From the NCBI RefSeq assembly GCF_000018865.1, contig NC_010175.1:3720001-3784000 (forward strand): DNA of 64,000 bases. The letters are read 5' to 3'. Within the stretch, counting starts at the first letter, position 1. The number at the start of each line of letters is the position of its first letter. The position numbers were made by a program, and so were the translations under genes. Below are positions 1 to 10,514 of this stretch, one piece after another. This DNA is from Chloroflexus aurantiacus J-10-fl (GTDB lineage: Bacteria > Chloroflexota > Chloroflexia > Chloroflexales > Chloroflexaceae). The notes below the pieces were generated by a model, which worked only from the letters and a program-made list of their open reading frames with translations, ran no database searches and was not told the origin of the DNA.

Positions 1-1782
1 CTCACCCGGCGCAAATACATCTAACAGCCCATTTGCAATGACAAACCCGTTATTCGTTCCCAGGGTTCGTTCGGCAAATCGTAAATCCAACACAAAGATA
101 CCATTCTCACCAAGGACACGCGCACCTTCTGCATGAACTTCAAGCGCAGTATTAGCATTGAGCGCAATCGCCAGTTGATCCGGGTGATTATAAGCCAGCG
201 AGAAGAGCCGTCCAAAACGTTTATCTGCCAATACCTGTGGTTGCAGGGTAACAGGTAGCAAATTCAGACCTTCTTTAATCTCAGTCTTCCCTTGCACGAA
301 GGATCGCTGTACTGCAATCTCTTCTTGTTCTGCATCGCCTGTCGGCGTTGGCCCGTGGGCGGCGTAGAAGCTGCCGAGGAGAGTTGCCGCAGCATTATCG
401 GCAAGAACAGGCGTCCCGGTCAGCCAGGCCGAACGCAACCATGCAGGGGGAGTCATGTTAGACGCATCCCGTCCAACAAACACAATGCCGTCAATATTAT
501 CAGGCACCGCTTCCCCGTCGCCTACAGTTACCTGAGCTCCGAGAGCACTCAGAGCATTGGCATAGCGTTGAGCGGTGCGCTGGTTCGCTGCTGGGGAAGC
601 ACCTCCATCGGCAACCACGAGAATACTGGCATTTGCCTTGCCTGTAATATCAAGAAACCGGCGCAGAATACCATTGTTGTTTAAGGTGTCGGAAATATCT
701 CCGGCGAGAATAAGGGTACCTGCGCCTGAAGGAATACGTAATGAATCGAACGTGCGCTCTAGTATTGGTGGAGGTTCATAGGCAGTTTGACCGAAATAGG
801 GCACCCGAGTCTGTAGATTGTATGAAAAATCACCCGGTGACAGCACAGTAAGCAAGACATTTCTTACACTAATGAGGGGAGGCTGCCCGTCGGCAATCGT
901 TACATAGCGCACAGAATCGGCGGCATGGTAAGTTTCGGCATCTAACACAGTAACCGTATACAATCCAAACACATCGCGAATCCAGTTTCCGTCGGCCACA
1001 ACACCGGTATAGGCATCAACACCTATCCCAACATGAGGTAGATCGGGTTGCGTAATGACGCTGATCAGTCGCCCCATACGCGCTCGTTGCTGAAAATGTT
1101 GGTCGACGATTGCGTCCTGAATCCCGAAAGGTAACCCTCGACGTTCATCGGTATTCCATACCTCGACCGCACCGAAGAATAGTGCATTTTCGGGTGCGAA
1201 ATTTGGACGGTAGGCTGCGAGCATTGTTCTGGATTGCACAGCGCCGCCGGCACTGGTTCCGCCAATAATGGTACCGTTTGCATACAGTTCAGTAAGCCGT
1301 TGCTCAGCAGGTGTATCTATCAAAGCCTGCATTGCCACAGCCTGATCGCCACCCAGAATATAGATAGCGGCAACATCATGGCTGAACAGCTCAAGAATCG
1401 CCGGATCGGAAGCATCAGAACGAGTAAATAGAGGGACTAATACCACCTCGCAAGACGTATCAGCCGGTACATTGCGCAGACACGCCCCCTCGATTTGCAG
1501 GCGCCGCTCCTCGGCATCTTTCAAGTTCTGATTTCGTTCAGCCTGGGTAATGGTTTCGGCATTAGTTGCATACGGTACCGGCAGCACCAGAATCTTCACC
1601 AACCCGTTGCGTGCATTCGCGATGGCGTATTGCATAAAACCGTTATACGTATCGGTATATCCACCGCCGATGATCAAAAGTAATCCTGGTGTTGATTGTG
1701 CCTGCACCGATATGATAAAAAAGAAAGCGAGAAGTAACGCGAGAAGATTCCTGGTCAGCAAAGAACGAAAGACCTGCATCAT
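1..1782 (-). CDS. Secreted tandem S51 (cyanophycinase-like) protein, 3' end outside window
   Basis: The reading frame is open from the ATG at 1782 to the window edge (594 codons), so the C-terminus is missing. Residues 1-29 form a signal peptide (FFIISVQAQS at its end). Residues 34-300 are a peptidase S51/cyanophycinase module with a GGG start, an ILGGDQ strand, the nucleophile motif GTSAGG (Ser177) and DQHFQQRARMGRL. Residues of about 345-590 repeat the same order of elements (ILAGDIS, IVFVGRD, a glycine-alanine turn, LADKRFGRLF) but the serine motif has become ADNAAA, so the second module looks inactive. The family cuts cyanophycin or beta-aspartyl bonds as a serine hydrolase. The gene starts 10 bases after the permease stop behind an AGGAAA ribosome site and closes the peptide-transport operon. 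An extracellular peptidase feeding the transporter is an inference. Confidence 0.82.
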   Translation of the reverse strand, partial: MMQVFRSLLTRNLLALLLAFFFIISVQAQSTPGLLLIIGGGYTDTYNGFMQYAIANARNGLVKILVLPVPYATNAETITQAERNQNLKDAEERRLQIEGACLRNVPADTSCEVVLVPLFTRSDASDPAILELFSHDVAAIYILGGDQAVAMQALIDTPAEQRLTELYANGTIIGGTSAGGAVQSRTMLAAYRPNFAPENALFFGAVEVWNTDERRGLPFGIQDAIVDQHFQQRARMGRLISVITQPDLPHVGIGVDAYTGVVADGNWIRDVFGLYTVTVLDAETYHAADSVRYVTIADGQPPLISVRNVLLTVLSPGDFSYNLQTRVPYFGQTAYEPPPILERTFDSLRIPSGAGTLILAGDISDTLNNNGILRRFLDITGKANASILVVADGGASPAANQRTAQRYANALSALGAQVTVGDGEAVPDNIDGIVFVGRDASNMTPPAWLRSAWLTGTPVLADNAAATLLGSFYAAHGPTPTGDAEQEEIAVQRSFVQGKTEIKEGLNLLPVTLQPQVLADKRFGRLFSLAYNHPDQLAIALNANTALEVHAEGARVLGENGIFVLDLRFAERTLGTNNGFVIANGLLDVFAPGE

Positions 1783-1792
1783 ACGTTATTTC

Positions 1793-2674
1793 CTAGCGTG
1801 AATGGTGGCGCGGATCGAGTGCATCACGCAAACCATCACCAATATAATTAATTGAAATAACTACCAGGAAGATCATGAAACCGGGAAAAATGGCCGCCCA
1901 GGGTGCTGTTGTAATCTGACTTTGGGTATTAGAGAGCATATTCCCCCAGGTAGGTGTGGGAAGCTGTACGCCAAAGCCAAGATAAGAAAGACCACTCTCA
2001 CTGATAATGGCACCAGAGAGTCCAAGCGTTGCTGAAACGATGATCGGACTGGCAATGTTTGGCAAAATGTGACGAAGTAGAATCCGGCGATGTGAACCTC
2101 CCAGTGCCCGACATGCCTGGACGTATTCGCGTTCGCGCACCGTGAGGGTAGAAGCGCGTACCATGCGTGCAGTTCCCATCCAGGAAAGCAAACCGATGAC
2201 TAGCGCGATAGGTATGAACGAACCGGCCTGAAACATTGACAGGTCGAGAGAACGGAGAAACATGCCCAATGCGATGAGTACAAATAATCGCGGAATAGAA
2301 AGAAAAATCTCTGTTGTCCTCATCAGCACGCTATCAACCCATCCGCCAAAATATCCCGCAAGTAATCCGATGAGAGAACCAAGTGTAATCGACACAGCCA
2401 TTGCCAGCAGACCAACGCTCAACGAAATACGTCCACCATACAGGATGCGTGCCCATAAATCACGTCCCAGATCATCAGTGCCGAGCCAGTGCGTTGCTGA
2501 TGGTGGCTGAAAGCGATTGAGCAGATTCTGTTGCATCGGATCATGAGTCGTGAAGAAGGGCGCAAATGCAACCAGTATGGTAATACTTACCAGAATGACC
2601 ATACCGACAAGTGCCATAGTATGCTTGCGAAAGCGTTGTACGAACAAGAACCAGGGTGATTGTGAGTCTTTCAT
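1793..2674 (-). CDS. Peptide/nickel ABC transporter permease, DppC/OppC type
   Basis: This 293-residue inner-membrane protein is the second permease of an Opp/Dpp-type ABC importer. An N-terminal membrane segment lies at about 17-40 with the family's OppC N-terminal domain. It is followed by the GTDDLGRDLWAR motif typical of DppC/OppC and a five-helix permease domain at about 90-285. The ATPase-contacting EAA loop is visible as ACRALGGSHRRILLRHILPN. Its start overlaps the stop of the first permease by 4 bases (ATGA), which implies translational coupling. The substrate cannot be read from the permease. The two S51 proteins in the same operon suggest dipeptides such as beta-Asp-Arg. No ATPase subunit is seen in the window; it may lie beyond the left edge or be shared. 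Confidence 0.93.
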   Translation of the reverse strand: MKDSQSPWFLFVQRFRKHTMALVGMVILVSITILVAFAPFFTTHDPMQQNLLNRFQPPSATHWLGTDDLGRDLWARILYGGRISLSVGLLAMAVSITLGSLIGLLAGYFGGWVDSVLMRTTEIFLSIPRLFVLIALGMFLRSLDLSMFQAGSFIPIALVIGLLSWMGTARMVRASTLTVREREYVQACRALGGSHRRILLRHILPNIASPIIVSATLGLSGAIISESGLSYLGFGVQLPTPTWGNMLSNTQSQITTAPWAAIFPGFMIFLVVISINYIGDGLRDALDPRHHSR

Positions 2675-3642
2675 GACAGTCGAATGCGTGGATCAAGCAT
2701 GGCATAGATCAGATCAACCAATAAGTTGGAAAGGATTATCAGAGCAGAATAGATTGTAAGAATAGCCATAACCAGGGGGTAGTCATTTTTGAGGGCGGCT
2801 GTGAAGTAGAGCCGCCCGATACCCGGCCACGCAAAGATCGTCTCGGTAAATAGTGCTCCGGCAAATAGTGATGGTAGATCGAGGCTGAGCAGGGTGACCA
2901 GCGGAATAATCGCATTGCGTAAGGCATGTTTATAAATAACGACCCATTCTTGAATACCTTTCGCACGGGCCGTGCGAATGTAGTCCTCGTGAATGACGTC
3001 CAGCATCGCCGAACGCATATAGCGCATATATTCGGCAGCGGAGACAAAGGTGAGCATGGTCACCGGTAAAATTAAATGACGGATACGATCCCACAGAGAG
3101 AATGGCTCACCGAGAGTGTACATACCTGATCCCGGTAGAAGAGGCTTTCCGTCTGGACCTCGTAAAAGCACCGAGAAGACAATAATCAGAAGTAGCCCAA
3201 ACCAGAAGACCGGCAGCGATTGCCCGGCAAACGCAATCGTGGTGAGTACGTTGTCCAGCCATGAGTATTGTCTGATTGCCGATAGGATTCCCAGCGGAAT
3301 AGCGACCAGTAGTGTGCATATCAGCATCAAACTCATCAGCAATAGGGTGTTGGGTAATCGACTGCCGATCTCTTCCAATACCGGGCGCTTTGACGTTAAG
3401 GAGCGACCCCAATCCCCTTTGAGCAGATTTCCGAGCCATTTCACGTAACGTATTGGTACCGGATCGTCTAATCCTAAATTTGCCCGGATGCGCGCCAGGT
3501 CTGCTGCCGTCATGTCTGATTTTTCAGCATACACGGTCATGAAACCACCCGGCGTTACTGAAATCAGCCCAAAGAGGATCAGGCTGACTACAAAGAGTGT
3601 CAGTACTGCCTGTAGCAGTCGTCGTAGCAGATAGGTAGTCAT
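2671..3642 (-). CDS. Peptide/nickel ABC transporter permease, DppB/OppB type
   Basis: This 323-residue membrane protein is the first permease of the same importer. I chose the ATG at 3642 (MTTYLLRRLLQAV) because it gives the normal DppB N-terminus and has an AGGG ribosome site in front. An upstream in-frame start would add 20 residues inside the binding-protein gene. An N-terminal helix (about 8-30) is followed by the LGLDDPVPIRYVKWL segment and a permease domain with the EAA loop TARAKGIQEWVVIYKHALRN at about 218-240. The gene begins 22 bases after the stop of the binding-protein gene. Confidence 0.93.
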   Translation of the reverse strand: MTTYLLRRLLQAVLTLFVVSLILFGLISVTPGGFMTVYAEKSDMTAADLARIRANLGLDDPVPIRYVKWLGNLLKGDWGRSLTSKRPVLEEIGSRLPNTLLLMSLMLICTLLVAIPLGILSAIRQYSWLDNVLTTIAFAGQSLPVFWFGLLLIIVFSVLLRGPDGKPLLPGSGMYTLGEPFSLWDRIRHLILPVTMLTFVSAAEYMRYMRSAMLDVIHEDYIRTARAKGIQEWVVIYKHALRNAIIPLVTLLSLDLPSLFAGALFTETIFAWPGIGRLYFTAALKNDYPLVMAILTIYSALIILSNLLVDLIYAMLDPRIRLS

Positions 3643-3664
3643 AGCACCCTGGTAAGCAATATAA

Positions 3665-5395
3665 TCACTGATCGAGCCACCAATCCTGTGCGGCCCATGC
3701 AAAATCGACGAAACTGGGTGAAATGGTCAAGTTGTGAAATTCCTGTCGGTGTGCAGTGATTGATAGCCGCTCGTACAGAAAGATGCGTGGCAAGTCCTGG
3801 TTAATCTGGGTTGCTACCTTGCAGTAAAGTTCTTTGCGGACATCCTGGTCCATAACGATAGCAGCCTCATCAATCCATGCATCTACATCGGGGTTAATAT
3901 AGCGGCTGAAATTTGCACCTGCCCAATCATTTTCAGCAGTCGGAATACGAGCACTGCTGTAGTTGCTGAACAGATGGCTGTCTGGATCAAGCCCTGGCCC
4001 GGTTGTGTAGAGAATAATATCGAACTTGCCTGTGTCGCGAATGCCGTCACTTTCCCCACCGGCGAAGAAGACGTCTGATGGCATATTTTCAATCGTGAGT
4101 TCAATCCCCACTTGTTTCAACATCTCGGCAAGTACCTGTTCGGTTTGCTCGCGCAGCAAGTTGCCGCTCGTTGAGTTTATTTTCAGGCTCAGGCGCATAC
4201 CGTCTTTTTCCCGAATGCCATCGGCGCCAACTTGCCAGCCCGCTTCTTCGAGCAATGCCTTTGCCCGCTCAGGATTGTATTCGCTGGCTGGTTGAGGGCA
4301 GGCAAACGGACCGGCAGGAAGGACGGTACTACCCGGTTTGACCTTTCCATACAAGAGGGTGTCAGCAATCATTTGTTTATTGATGGCGTATTGAATCGCC
4401 TGCCGCACGCGCAGGTCGTAGAGAATGGGATGCGGATTCGTGGCAGGATCGGCCGGAGCACTGCCATCATTATTGCCAAAGTTCAGGACAAGCAGCTCGT
4501 TCTCGCCGGTTACCGTCGCTTTATAGGTTACATTCTGACCAGCAGACTGTTCGATAGTGGCCAGATCAGCTTCGGTAATGTCCCACAAGGCATGAATCTC
4601 ACCGGTTCCTAACAATTGAATGCCCACTTCGCGTGACGGTAAGACGCGAATAATGACTTTATCCAGGTATGGTTTTCCTTCTTCACGGTAGTATGGATTT
4701 CGCACAAATGTGAGATGATCGCCAGCAACCCATTCTTCAAGGACGAAAGGTCCCGTTCCCCACGGTTTCTGATTGTATGCCCAGGTTTCCATCTGATCGA
4801 GAGGGCCGGCATCATGGGGCACGATGTAAGCAAATAGACGCAGATAAGGTGCGTATACTTCCGAGAAGGTAGCAACGACAGTGTATGGATCAGGGCATTC
4901 CAGTGTTTCGATAGAGCTATACCCGGATGTGCTAACCTGGGAGAGGTCAGACAGAGCACCTTCCATCGTAAATTTCACATCTTCGCATGTGAATTCTAGC
5001 CCGTTTGAGAACCTTACACCCTTGCGTAGCTTCCACGTTACAACCAGCCCATCCTCTGAGACGGTCGGCAGTTCTTCAGCCAGAACTGGTACATATTCAC
5101 CTTTATCATTGACCTGAACCAGTCCTTCAACAAACAGTGAGGTGACAGCATCTTCGATAGACGAGGTTGTCAGTAATGTGTTAAGAATAGCCGGTTCTTG
5201 CGGGGTACCAAAAATTAACGTTCCGCCCTGTTTGGGGGCATTTGGGTCAACAGCAGGCTGGTCGGCCGTGGGTTGAGTGACGGCCGTGGTCGGCATAGTT
5301 TGCGATGAACCGGATGGCGAAGATGAGGGTGAACTGCTACAGGCTGTCAGGACCAAAAGTACGGCGATGATTAACAATGAGTGCGAGGGTTTCAT
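3665..5395 (-). CDS. Family-5 extracellular solute-binding lipoprotein (peptide type)
   Basis: This 576-residue protein is the substrate-binding subunit of the importer. It starts with a lipoprotein signal whose lipobox LTAC puts the lipidated cysteine at residue 19. A Ser/Pro/Thr-rich tether follows to about residue 50, then an SBP_bac_5 domain (GGTLIFGTPQEPAILN, the VTWKLRKGVRFSNG strand, NPYYREEGKPYLDKV) to the end. Family members bind di- and oligopeptides, nickel or other small ligands. The operon context favours peptides released from cyanophycin-like material. AAGGAG precedes the ATG at 5395, and the gene starts 36 bases after the cyanophycinase stop. Confidence 0.92.
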   Translation of the reverse strand: MKPSHSLLIIAVLLVLTACSSSPSSSPSGSSQTMPTTAVTQPTADQPAVDPNAPKQGGTLIFGTPQEPAILNTLLTTSSIEDAVTSLFVEGLVQVNDKGEYVPVLAEELPTVSEDGLVVTWKLRKGVRFSNGLEFTCEDVKFTMEGALSDLSQVSTSGYSSIETLECPDPYTVVATFSEVYAPYLRLFAYIVPHDAGPLDQMETWAYNQKPWGTGPFVLEEWVAGDHLTFVRNPYYREEGKPYLDKVIIRVLPSREVGIQLLGTGEIHALWDITEADLATIEQSAGQNVTYKATVTGENELLVLNFGNNDGSAPADPATNPHPILYDLRVRQAIQYAINKQMIADTLLYGKVKPGSTVLPAGPFACPQPASEYNPERAKALLEEAGWQVGADGIREKDGMRLSLKINSTSGNLLREQTEQVLAEMLKQVGIELTIENMPSDVFFAGGESDGIRDTGKFDIILYTTGPGLDPDSHLFSNYSSARIPTAENDWAGANFSRYINPDVDAWIDEAAIVMDQDVRKELYCKVATQINQDLPRIFLYERLSITAHRQEFHNLTISPSFVDFAWAAQDWWLDQ

Positions 5396-5431
5396 GCAGT
5401 GCTCCTTGTAGATAAATCAGGCGGTCTCTGG

Positions 5432-6241
5432 CTACTCATCGCTAAGCGAGGGCACAACGGTAATATGCGCGTTACCATTCACACAATCGTAGGTGCAGCC
5501 TGCCGTTAATACATGTGCTGTCAGGTGTCCAACGGCCACCGGTCGTCCAGCCTCAACCTCAGCAACATTTGACTCCGAAATGGTTCGTCCGTCTAGTATC
5601 GTAACTGCGCCTTTTCCATATACCCGGATGTGCTGCTCATCCTCAATGATGGCGGCCGTATCTTCATCGATACCGATGCCCAACACACCGGGATGAGTAC
5701 ATACGACGTAAATTAATCTGCCCCAACGATCACGCTGACGAAAATGCTGATCGAAGACAAAGCGGTCGGTGAAGCCTAATCCTGGTGAACATTGCACGAT
5801 CCGCTCGCGTGGGGTAGGGCCACTCTTACCATACGCGATCATCGTTTTGGACAGGACGGAAGCACCAGCGCTCGTCCCTGCAATGACGCAACCTCGTAGA
5901 TATGCCCGATACAGGGCATCGGCCAGACGAGTACCACCGATGAGCTGGGTAATACGCATTTGTGCTCCGCCGGTAAAAAAAATACCGCTGGCTTCTTCAA
6001 TCGCGTCTAAGTTTTCGGTTGTGTCAGCAGCATGCCGTTGGCGAAATTCCAATGAGATAACCTGTCCCGCTCCCAATGACAGGCACTGATGTACGTAGTG
6101 TGAACCGGTTTCGGCTAAAGCTGAAGCCTGGGGCAAAATCACGATCCGCGCTTGCGCTCCGCCTGAACGCTCGACAAATTCACGCATAATATGAGGGTTT
6201 TCGTGATCGAGAGCACCCCCAATGGGCATCAATATCTTCAT
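5432..6241 (-). CDS. cphB: Cyanophycinase (peptidase S51), cytoplasmic
   Basis: This 269-residue protein has the normal length of cyanophycinase and no signal peptide. The sequence shows an N-terminal GGAL, a FFTGGAQMRITQLI strand, the nucleophile elbow GTSAGAS with Ser124, the FDQHFRQRDRWGRL segment and a GIGIDEDTAAI strand, all in the family order. The known reaction is hydrolysis of multi-Arg-poly-Asp (cyanophycin) to beta-Asp-Arg. Some S51 members act on other beta-aspartyl or Asp-X peptides, so the exact substrate is open. The start overlaps the regulator stop by 4 bases, so the two are co-translated. The pairing with a secreted S51 protein and a peptide importer supports a role in using external material rather than turnover of a cell's own polymer. 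No cyanophycin synthetase is present in the window. Confidence 0.9.
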   Translation of the reverse strand: MKILMPIGGALDHENPHIMREFVERSGGAQARIVILPQASALAETGSHYVHQCLSLGAGQVISLEFRQRHAADTTENLDAIEEASGIFFTGGAQMRITQLIGGTRLADALYRAYLRGCVIAGTSAGASVLSKTMIAYGKSGPTPRERIVQCSPGLGFTDRFVFDQHFRQRDRWGRLIYVVCTHPGVLGIGIDEDTAAIIEDEQHIRVYGKGAVTILDGRTISESNVAEVEAGRPVAVGHLTAHVLTAGCTYDCVNGNAHITVVPSLSDE

Positions 6242-6933
6242 GGCTGCTCCAAGTCTGCTTGCCTTTGCAGTGAATCGCGCAGATACCGTACAGTGTTGAG
6301 GATATGAGTGCGCATAGCCTGCTCGGCTGCTTCAGGTTGATGGTTTTTTAACGCCTCAAAGATGGCAAGGTGTTCAAGCGTGTCAGTCTCGTCTCGCTTG
6401 TAGAGGGGGCGCTGGGCGGTAGCGGCAAAGTTGCCGATGAGCATTGTTGGGAAGGTCGCCCACATCTGATTGAGGGTACGAATGAGGTATTCTCGCCCAG
6501 ATGCTGTAAAGATAAGCTGGTGAAATGTGCGATTCAGTTGCCGATATTCATTGACCTGCTCAGGTGCGGAATAGATATTCATTTGCTCCAGCACCTGAGC
6601 AATGTTTGCTAACTCTTCATCACTGATCCGTGCCGCAGCAAATGCCGCAGCTCTACTCTCTAAAAAGGCGCGATGTTCGTATAAATCCTCAATATCAGTC
6701 AGCGAAAAGGCGATCACACGTACTCCGCGGTAGGGTACGTGCTCGATAAGTCCTTCGGCCGTCAGTTCTTTTAAGGCTTCACGAACCGGCATCTGGCTGA
6801 CATTGAGTTCTTGCGCCAGCTTTTCCTGGCGTAGCCACTCGCCAGGTTTGTACCGGCCTTCCAGGATAGCCGCACGTAACTGATCGGCAACCAGTTTACG
6901 CAATTGGCGATGGGGTGATGGATCAGTAGACAT
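6238..6933 (-). CDS. GntR-family transcriptional regulator with FCD (FadR-type) domain
   Basis: This 231-residue protein has an N-terminal winged helix (about 8-75) with the GntR signature LRAAILEGRYKPGEWLRQEKLA and MPVREALKELTAEGLIE. An all-helical FCD ligand domain follows (about 85-215) with ASGREYLIRTLNQMW and metal-site histidines such as HQLIF. FCD regulators usually repress and are released by small acids or amino acids. It is the first gene of the S51/peptide importer operon, so it most likely represses that operon and itself. The inverted repeat between its -35 and -10 elements is the obvious operator. The ATG at 6933 lies only about 7 bases from the predicted transcript start and has no ribosome site. 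Confidence 0.93.
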   Translation of the reverse strand: MSTDPSPHRQLRKLVADQLRAAILEGRYKPGEWLRQEKLAQELNVSQMPVREALKELTAEGLIEHVPYRGVRVIAFSLTDIEDLYEHRAFLESRAAAFAAARISDEELANIAQVLEQMNIYSAPEQVNEYRQLNRTFHQLIFTASGREYLIRTLNQMWATFPTMLIGNFAATAQRPLYKRDETDTLEHLAIFEALKNHQPEAAEQAMRTHILNTVRYLRDSLQRQADLEQP

Positions 6934-7851: not shown

Positions 7852-8118
7852 AGGATGATAGTTCGTTGCATAAACATTTAAAACCTCTTCTTTGATTGTA
7901 CCACGGATACGGTCGTTACCTGAACGATGTGCGCCAGATTTAGTTTAGAATCTGTTAAGAAGTGACCCCTCATCACATCTCCGGCTCACGTTCCTCTCCC
8001 GCCGGGGGAGGATGGACTCCAGCCCCCAGCGGGGGCGGGCTGGGGTGGGGGTGTGATCTCGTCCCCCTCCTAACCTCCCCTCGCTGGGGTGAGGAGGTCG
8101 AGCGCGTGCCCCTGCCCT

Positions 8119-8560
8119 CAGCCTATGCATTACCCACATGTCACGCTGCGTTAGGTCGGGCTGCACGTACTCCCCGTGGCGCAGGCTTCCAGCCTGCGTG
8201 GATGCATCCTCACCACCGCCGGCAGGGGCTGGCCGTGGCCGCTGGTACGCAGGCACGAATCTCTTGCAACATAACCGTCTACGCGCAGGTGTCGCATGCA
8301 TGCCTGATCGACTCGATGATCGGCACGAGCACATTCAGCACCCTCGTGACCAGGATGGGTAACGGTATGCCACGCGCCGGATCGTGTGTACGGCTAGCGC
8401 GGCAGCATGGCTGCCGCACTCCACACCGTGCGACACGCGCATGATGCGCGTGTAAGGCAACCCATTCAGCACGTGATAGCACGGCTGGAGCAGCGCACTG
8501 CCACTGGGCCAGTCGCCTAAAACACCACCCATGGCGATCATTCCCGCTGCTACGCACATG
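8119..8560. repeat. Direct repeat, copy 1 (second copy 9585-10026)
   Basis: From CAGCCTATGCATTACCC the sequence matches the copy at 9585 almost base for base over about 440 bases, with an offset of 1466. The last 60 bases are more diverged. It includes one copy of the dispersed hairpin element. Confidence 0.85.
8348..8450 (-). repeat. Dispersed hairpin element, about 100 bp
   Basis: The element has a core AGTGCGGCAGCC-ATGC-type palindrome flanked by CGATCCGGCGCGTGG on one side and a CGCGTGTCGC phrase on the other. Related copies are at 9301-9394, 9813-9916, 19787-19889, 20027-20129, 20268-20370, 23752-23832, 33590-33672 and 58012-58122, with a shorter one at 13691-13785. Confidence 0.8.
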
Positions 8561-8726
8561 GTTAACATCAGTTGTGGGTAATGCATAGCGGCAGCGTTGG
8601 GAGCGCGAGCCTCTGGCTCGCCAAAGCATTGCCTCCGCCTCCAGCGGGGGTGGGGGTGTGATCTCGTCCCTCTCCCAACCTCCCCTCGCTGGGGTGAGGA
8701 GGTCGAGCGCGTGCCCCCGCCCCCAG

Positions 8727-9535
8727 CCTATGCATGACCTATATGTCACGCTGCGTCAGGCAGACTGCAAGCGTTCCCCGTGGCGCAGGCTTCCAGCCTG
8801 CGTGAAGGCATCCTCGCTACCGCCGGCAGGGGCTGGCCCCACTGGCAGGCTTCCAGCCTGCCCCACGGTCGGATACACCGTCTACCGTCGCTACCACTGC
8901 GACCATCCGCTGCCCATGCGTGACGTGAGACTCTCGCGACAGTGATGCAACGCGATAGTACACAGGATCGCGCACAATGAGATAGGTGCTGCTTATGTGC
9001 GAAGAAGGTGACAACCTGGGTATGGGTGATGCATAGCGCTGCGTGGGAGCGGGGAGCGTAGCGGCTGTGATCACCTCTGAACAACCATCCATGGCACGCC
9101 ATGGCACACGATGCAAGACATTCCCATCCACCGCATCCCGTGGATGGTCAGGTGAACGGTACAGGTACCATCCGTAGGGGCGGGTTCTCAACCCGCCCCT
9201 ACGGAACCCGCCTCTACACACCACCGGCACCAGCACGCTGTGGGGCAGGCGATCAATCTGCGTTCAGCCATCTCCATCATCAGAGTCACATACCGGCACG
9301 GGAGTCCGCTGCAATCCGCGCCGGATCGTGTGTACGGCTGGCGCGGCAGCATGGCTGCCGCACTCCAAACTGTTCGACATGCGCATGATGCGCGTGTAAG
9401 GCAACCCATTCAGCACGTGATAGCACGGCTGGAGCGGCGCACTGCCACGGGCCAGTCGCCTAAAACACCACCCATGGCGATCATTCCCGCTGCTACGCAC
9501 ATGGTTAACATCAGTTGTGGGTAATGCATAGCGGC
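8727..9535 (+). repeat. Long repeat cassette, inverted partner of 33440-34246
   Basis: Read on the opposite strand, this stretch follows the same order of phrases as 33440-34246, including GGTTGTCACCTTCTTCG-like text, a GGGGCGGGTT hairpin and the hairpin element, at clearly high but not perfect identity. The partner is in opposite orientation about 24 kb away. Confidence 0.8.
9172..9204. repeat. Perfect 15-bp stem hairpin, GGGGCGGGTT type
   Basis: CCGTAGGGGCGGGTT pairs with AACCCGCCCCTACGG around CTC. An identical palindrome is at 33773-33805. No T tract follows, so it is a repeat element rather than a terminator. Confidence 0.85.
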
Positions 9536-9584
9536 AGCGTTGGGAGCGCGAGCCTCTGGCTCGCCAAAGCATTGCCTCCGCCTC

Positions 9585-10026
9585 CAGCCTATGCATTACC
9601 CACATGTCACGCTGCGTTAGGTCGGGCTGCACGTACTCCCCGTGGCGCAGGCTTCCAGCCTGCGTGGATGCATCCTCACCACCGCCGGCAGGGGCTGGCC
9701 GTGGCCGCTGGTACGCAGGCACGAATCTCTTGCAACATAACCGTCTACGCGCAGGTGTCGCATGCATGCCTGACCGACTCGATGATCGAAACGAGCACAT
9801 CCAGCATCCCCGTGACCAGGATGGGTAACGGTATGCCACGCGCCGGATCGTGTGTACGGCTGGCGCGGCAGCATGGCTGCCGCACGCCAAACTGCGCGAC
9901 ACGCACATGAGGCGCGTGTAAGGCAACCCATTCAGCACGTGATACCACGGCTGGAGCGGCGCACTGCCACTGGGCCAGTCGTTCAAAACAACACCAATAG
10001 CGATCATGCCCGCTGATACGCACGTG
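9585..10026. repeat. Direct repeat, copy 2 (first copy 8119-8560)
   Basis: It matches the first copy from CAGCCTATGCATTACCC onward. The two copies differ by scattered substitutions and in the final part. The hairpin element lies at 9813-9916. Confidence 0.85.
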
Positions 10027-10167
10027 GTTGACACCAGGTATGGGTTGTGCATAGCCGGGCGGGAGAGGGGAGGGTAGACGTGTGATCCAGAGCTTCCTGA
10101 TAGGGTAGACGTTGGGTTCGATCATCTGTCCTGGCCGTCCGTGAATGCCGCCAGGGGCGGGAGCTTG

Positions 10168-10356
10168 CTCCTGGCTCCTCCCTCCAGCACTGGTACCGGC
10201 ACCATACGCGCCAGAGGCGTGCGCTCCCAGCTCCTGGCTCCTCCCTCCAGCACTGGTACCGGCACCATACGCGCCAGAGGCGCGCGCTCCCAGCTCCTGG
10301 TTCCTCCCTCCAGCACTGGTACCGGCACCATACGCGCCAGAGGCGCGCGCTCCCAG
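10168..10356. repeat. 63-bp tandem repeat, three units
   Basis: Units begin at 10168, 10231 and 10294, each starting CTCCTGGYTCCTCC and containing CACTGGTACCGGCACC. They differ by only a few bases. Because 63 is divisible by three, frames stay open on both strands here, but no start, ribosome site or family supports a protein. Confidence 0.9.
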
Positions 10357-10514
10357 CGCCTGGCTGGGGAGCACGTCCGTCATCACACCCCCGACCCGCT
10401 CCGGCACACGGGCAATGCAGTATTCGCGTTATGGGTAATGCATAGCGCGCAGCGGGCGAGGGGCCGGGGGTGAGAGCGTTCTCTGTATCATCCGGCACAA
10501 CTACCATTGCCCGA

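Follow-up and report, generated by a model that had tools for sequence, protein, structure and literature searches.

A probable surface cyanophycinase-type protein with a degenerate second module in a putative cyanophycin-scavenging operon of Chloroflexus aurantiacus

Cyanophycin is a bacterial nitrogen-storage polymer that is cut by cyanophycinases, which are dimers. Other enzyme classes include pseudoenzymes that act as fused partners; a search of the open-licence literature found none described for cyanophycinases. CphB of Synechocystis PCC 6803 (PDB 3EN0, 7UQW), a cytoplasmic single-module enzyme, has the fold that is common to both modules of the protein described here, and its Ser132, His174, Q101, R178, R180 and R183 are all retained in module 1. 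In contrast to CphB, our protein is exported and consists of two modules, with the catalytic Glu201 replaced and with a module 2 that has neither Ser nor His. CphE of Pseudomonas anguilliseptica and P. alcaligenes is extracellular, with a mature mass of 43.6 kDa and a proposed triad of Ser171, His224 and Glu251 (PMC3235067). Compared by description only, CphE resembles our protein in being exported with a GXSXG motif and a His. Cyanophycin-scavenging clusters with transporters have also been described (PMC10206079), and the cyanophycin utilization loci of Ben Hania et al., as cited in PMC10206079, likewise combine cyanophycinase genes and a transporter with no cphA1. PDB entry 7UQV (“pseudo-CphB”) was considered as a precedent for a dead cyanophycinase and set aside, as its sequence keeps GTSAG, DQHF and GIDEDT; no paper on it was found in the open-licence literature. 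The parts of the system are known, while a tandem of an active and an inactive module, the occurrence of this tandem in several phyla and the loss of the Glu in the active module appear to be undescribed in that literature.

The window analysed here is a 64,000-nucleotide stretch of the C. aurantiacus J-10-fl genome (5,258,541 bases, a single contig). A minus-strand open reading frame at 1..1782 runs open to the window edge and covers residues 1-594 of a protein of 685 aa. The gene called there by an earlier sequence-only reading is real but was cut by the edge; the full two-module gene lies at L003:9725-11782 on the minus strand. Its single open frame of 685 codons rules out a frameshift or a pseudogene. 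From the N-terminus, a signal peptide precedes modules 1 and 2; a Pro/Thr-rich linker then leads to a C-terminal transmembrane helix, with KARR after it. The signal peptide (residues 1-28; 1699..1782, minus strand) is a hydrophobic stretch ending in ..SVQAQ in the translation, with similar N-termini in homologues and a helix at residues 2-24 in the predicted model. Module 1 (residues 30-330; 793..1695, minus strand), an S51/cyanophycinase module with Ser and His, was delimited by PF03575, TIGR02069 and a structure match, and the degenerate S51/cyanophycinase module 2 (residues 342-600, the last six past the window edge; 1..759, minus strand) by profiles and the model. The membrane anchor sits beyond the edge and was absent from the earlier reading; the protein is predicted to be secreted and is probably held at the cell surface by this C-terminal transmembrane helix. 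A tail of the same kind is found in homologues L116 and L118. The two-module proteins L036, L037 and L050 end instead in ..YLPVLLR or ..YLPLVRxx (..YLPLVRRTN, ..YLPLVRND), an ending that may serve for sorting or attachment in Chloroflexota.

The two-module gene is the last of six on one strand, in the order GntR–CphB–SBP–OppB–OppC–two-module, an operon that the earlier reading had missed. Profile matches and synteny identified an OppC-type ABC permease (1793..2674), an OppB-type ABC permease (2671..3702), a peptide-type solute-binding lipoprotein of the SBP_bac_5 family (3665..5395) and, at the head of the operon, a GntR/FCD regulator (6238..6933), all on the minus strand. Between the binding protein and the regulator lies a canonical cytoplasmic cyanophycinase of CphB type (5432..6241, minus strand; TIGR02069 E 1.6e-74), in which GTSAG, DQHF and GIDEDT are all present. 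The six genes occur in identical order in two other Chloroflexota (G167 and G435), and the neighbourhood of L050 holds GntR, the two-module gene, SBP, OppB and OppC. As in the utilization loci, cyanophycinase genes and a transporter are clustered in a genome where no cyanophycin synthetase was found above cut-off (best TIGR02068 match 109.9 bits, cut-off 850). Compared with those loci as cited in PMC10206079, the operon differs in that none of its six genes encodes an isoaspartyl dipeptidase (IadA or IaaA) and in that the exported cyanophycinase has the two-module form. An IaaA-type gene is present elsewhere in the genome, at 4.71 Mb, and no IadA was found above cut-off in the genome.

SBP and OppB are 83-85% identical between C. 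aurantiacus and G167, as against only 69% for ribosomal protein L2; no match to the two-module protein was found in the seven congeners searched; and GC content is 0.51 in the operon and 0.565-0.60 in the flanks. On these grounds the whole operon (window 1-6933) was probably acquired horizontally; the operons nearest to it belong to a different family within the phylum. Relatives of this filamentous, photosynthetic bacterium share mats with cyanobacteria, and the locus suggests that it may eat cyanobacterial nitrogen reserves by means of an acquired operon. Repeat-like sequence, possibly a dispersed repeat, flanks the operon at window positions of about 7950-10400 and at about 860-1640 of L003, where spurious translations share YALPTCHAALGRAARTPRGAGFQPAW...

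The search for homologues covered the order (82 genomes), the phylum (400 genomes) and a collection of 84,980 species. We identified at least 29 distinct two-module proteins, our protein counted in; this is a lower bound, since the scan of the collection was seeded with short peptide patterns of module 1. Within Chloroflexota they occur in Chloroflexaceae, Herpetosiphonaceae, Ardenticatenaceae and Anaerolineales, within Actinomycetota in Knoellia, Phycicoccus, Janibacter, Tetrasphaera/Nostocoides, Pedococcus and others, and among Proteobacteria in two Burkholderiales MAGs and one Steroidobacteraceae MAG. With the profile, every two-module protein reached 318 bits or more and the next match, a single-module enzyme, reached 136 bits, so that in these data this type of module 1 always came together with module 2.

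The second half of the protein had been proposed to repeat the S51 module with a destroyed nucleophile, as a fused pseudo-enzyme, and both parts of this proposal hold. The roles suggested along with it were those of a dimer partner or a binding domain. TIGR02069 matches module 2 alone with E 1.3e-10 at 41.2 bits, below the equivalog cut-off of 126.6, and PF03575 scores 15.8 against a cut-off of 23.9. A module 2 profile of the 29 sequences matches the operon's own canonical cyanophycinase with 99% probability (E 2e-18), matches module 1 with 98% probability and recovers cyanophycinases of the PDB at E about 1e-19. Predicted alone, module 2 gave a confident model (pLDDT 95, pTM 0.93), whose best solved match is the cyanophycinase 7uqw_B (Z 27.5, rmsd 2.1 Å over 230 residues). 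Profiles and predicted structure together identify module 2 as a genuine S51/cyanophycinase module and exclude an unrelated beta domain; since the homologues also carry both modules, neither an unrelated fold nor a single-module family describes this protein.

At the former nucleophile elbow, module 2 reads ADNAAA (D462-N-A-A-A466; 385..399, minus strand). Ser is absent here from all 29 proteins, which excludes a loss private to this genome, and the catalytic His is kept in one of the 29. The counterpart of the DQH segment is LQPQVLADKRFGRL, which aligns without a gap to DQHFRQRDRWGRL of the canonical cyanophycinase in the profile comparison. Module 2 has a motif of its own, P515-x4-D520-K-R-F-G-R-L526 (205..240, minus strand), corresponding to Q173..R178..R183 of CphB. 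D462 takes the place of T131, beside the nucleophile, P515 that of Q173 and D520 that of Arg178. These positions are nearly constant: Asp or Glu at 462 in 27/29, Pro515 in 28/29, Asp or Glu at 520 in 28/29 and Arg or Lys at the R183 counterpart in 29/29; G524, D566 and Asn577 are conserved as well.

We propose, with a probability of roughly 55%, that the protein is a surface cyanophycinase of a scavenging operon in which module 2 serves as a built-in pseudo-dimer partner; its substrate, activity and location are deduced from family membership and sequence features. It would be an exported cyanophycinase-type serine peptidase in which module 1 performs the putative chemistry, and module 2 would be an old inactivated copy that replaces the second subunit of the homodimer and stabilises or shapes module 1. 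Going by what is known of the family, cyanophycin released by other bacteria would be cut outside the cell, its beta-Asp-Arg (oligo)peptide products would enter through the linked OppB/OppC/SBP system, and the cytoplasmic CphB together with the IaaA-type peptidase encoded elsewhere would complete the breakdown inside. The full-length model has pLDDT 89.7 and pTM 0.85, a value probably too high for freely placed modules, which, with the obligate co-occurrence of the two, points to a defined packing; in the model this is most simply read as module 2 packed on module 1 as a second protomer. Several observations count against parts of this proposal. Module 1 lacks the catalytic Glu of cyanophycinases in 28/29, the cluster itself encodes no isoaspartyl dipeptidase, a pure partner would not require the conserved pocket acids of module 2, and in Knoellia (L042) and in G417 no Opp or other operon neighbours were found beside the two-module gene.

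The conserved acids are, in turn, what a binding role would draw on. Module 2 may be a putative binding domain whose acidic former active site grips either cyanophycin, by the Arg side chains of the polymer, or a cation, so that the insoluble polymer stays close to module 1; we regard this as a serious alternative, at about one chance in four. Besides the acids at 462 and 520 and the Pro at the Q173 position, it is favoured by the basic residue at the R183 counterpart and by Arg at the R180 counterpart in 19/29, a pattern that looks like a specific signature rather than random decay. However, only 13/29 proteins retain Q101 in module 2 and none (0/29) retains D172 there, so the original substrate pocket has not been kept as such.

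That module 2 is a decaying relic without a role is very improbable, even though it does evolve faster than module 1, with 4 invariant columns as against 27. Pairwise dN/dS among close relatives is mostly 0.18-0.28 in module 2 and 0.12-0.25 in module 1, well below 1, which indicates that module 2 is under purifying selection; together with residues conserved in their own right (Pro515, Asp520, Asp462, Asn577), this argues that it is not a relic. All 29 proteins, from several phyla, have moreover retained the fold and length of module 2, and in the lineage of C. aurantiacus module 2 has changed less than module 1, their identities to the closest relative, L116, being 73% and 68%. The outlier is L053, of Knoellia locipacati, whose strongly diverged module 2, with dN/dS of 0.45-0.68, counts in favour of decay. 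L053 and L042 share 54% identity in module 2 and 83% in module 1; such values suggest that module 2 alone was replaced or is changing fast in L053. The relic reading can be taken as largely refuted already by dN/dS and conservation, and the conserved signature of module 2 argues for either a partner role, as we propose, or a re-purposed pocket.

The identity of module 1 is clear from the profiles. TIGR02069 scores 140.8 bits on the full protein, above its curated cut-off of 126.6, and PF03575 scores 41.4 on module 1 (cut-off 23.9), the only module that a Pfam family matches above cut-off. In the full-length model, residues 33-331 align with 7uqv_A (VIA-align Z 25.8, rmsd 2.2, 253 residues), so that both halves resemble solved cyanophycinases. 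Module 1 carries G175-T-S177-A-G179 and DQHFQQRARMGRL; the nucleophile Ser177 (1252..1254, minus strand) and the catalytic His229 (1096..1098, minus strand) are present in 29/29 two-module proteins. Its substrate pocket is likewise kept, with the counterparts of Q101, R178, R180 and R183 in 29/29 and of D172 in 27/29. An insertion holds an invariant pair of cysteines (Cys101..Cys111; 1450..1482, minus strand) that may form a possible disulfide.

The site of module 1 had been described as complete. Its Ser and His are indeed there, but the triad Glu is missing: in Asp256-Ala257 (1012..1017, minus strand) the Asp is invariant and Ala257 occupies the position of the catalytic Glu201 of CphB. Across the 29 proteins this position holds Tyr in 16, Ala in 7, Trp in 4, Phe in 1 and Glu in 1, as against Glu in 86 and Asp in 3 of 92 other S51 modules (the position is not resolved in the remaining 3). 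The acid of the S51 site may be Glu or Asp depending on the enzyme (PMC9239234). With the Glu201 counterpart replaced in 28/29, the site has to be called altered, and activity of module 1 is not a given.

A further alternative follows from this loss, namely that module 2 completes or regulates the site of module 1, the lost Glu being replaced by an acid of module 2 or by Glu160 of module 1 itself (1303..1305, minus strand), which is invariant in the 29 proteins and found in 0/21 single-module cyanophycinases. Together with the conserved acids of module 2 this would fit a compensated site, and the related PepE, according to the title of a paper cited in PMC9239234, has its active site at the dimer interface. 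Yet the acids of both modules are unchanged in L041, the sole protein with Glu201, and Glu201 and the acids thus show no inverse correlation. We consider this completion improbable, as we do, by a hair less, the related idea of an obligate catalytic/pseudo-catalytic tandem peptidase whose modules share one working site, with Ser and His from module 1 and a residue or a substrate surface from module 2. The family makes it possible to ask what a second subunit does for peptidases of S51 and if they can work with the triad Glu lost.

As to the origin of the tandem, a tree of 77 modules placed all module 1 and all module 2 sequences in one group each (SH-aLRT 100 and 95, respectively), and the inner branching of the module 2 clade largely mirrors that of module 1, as judged by a quick tree method that left several forks open. 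Two clades with largely matching branching make one old fusion likely, and the simplest reading of the sequences is that the module 2 site was lost before the proteins spread. A recent doubling of module 2 from module 1 is excluded by the separate clades; against the two-module profile, moreover, the N-terminal part of single-module cyanophycinases matches module 2 positions and their C-terminal part module 1, a split that speaks against such a doubling too.

Planctomycetota MAGs (L070, L081, L094) also encode exported proteins that combine two S51 modules. These fusions differ in that GxSAG and DQH (DQHF) are intact in both modules and in their separate position in the tree, which indicates that tandem cyanophycinase-like proteins arose independently here. 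Single-module enzymes, tandems with two intact sites and tandems with one dead site provide a natural comparison set. As candidates for the same tandem, exported S51 proteins of 665-669 aa with Asp at the triad Glu position were also observed in Bacteroidota (L064:7947-9941, L065:7947-9953 and L067:7671-9665); their C-terminal half is weakly like module 2 (hhalign probability 67%) and showed no match to the canonical enzyme. In all three loci the gene is followed by a second, single S51 gene.
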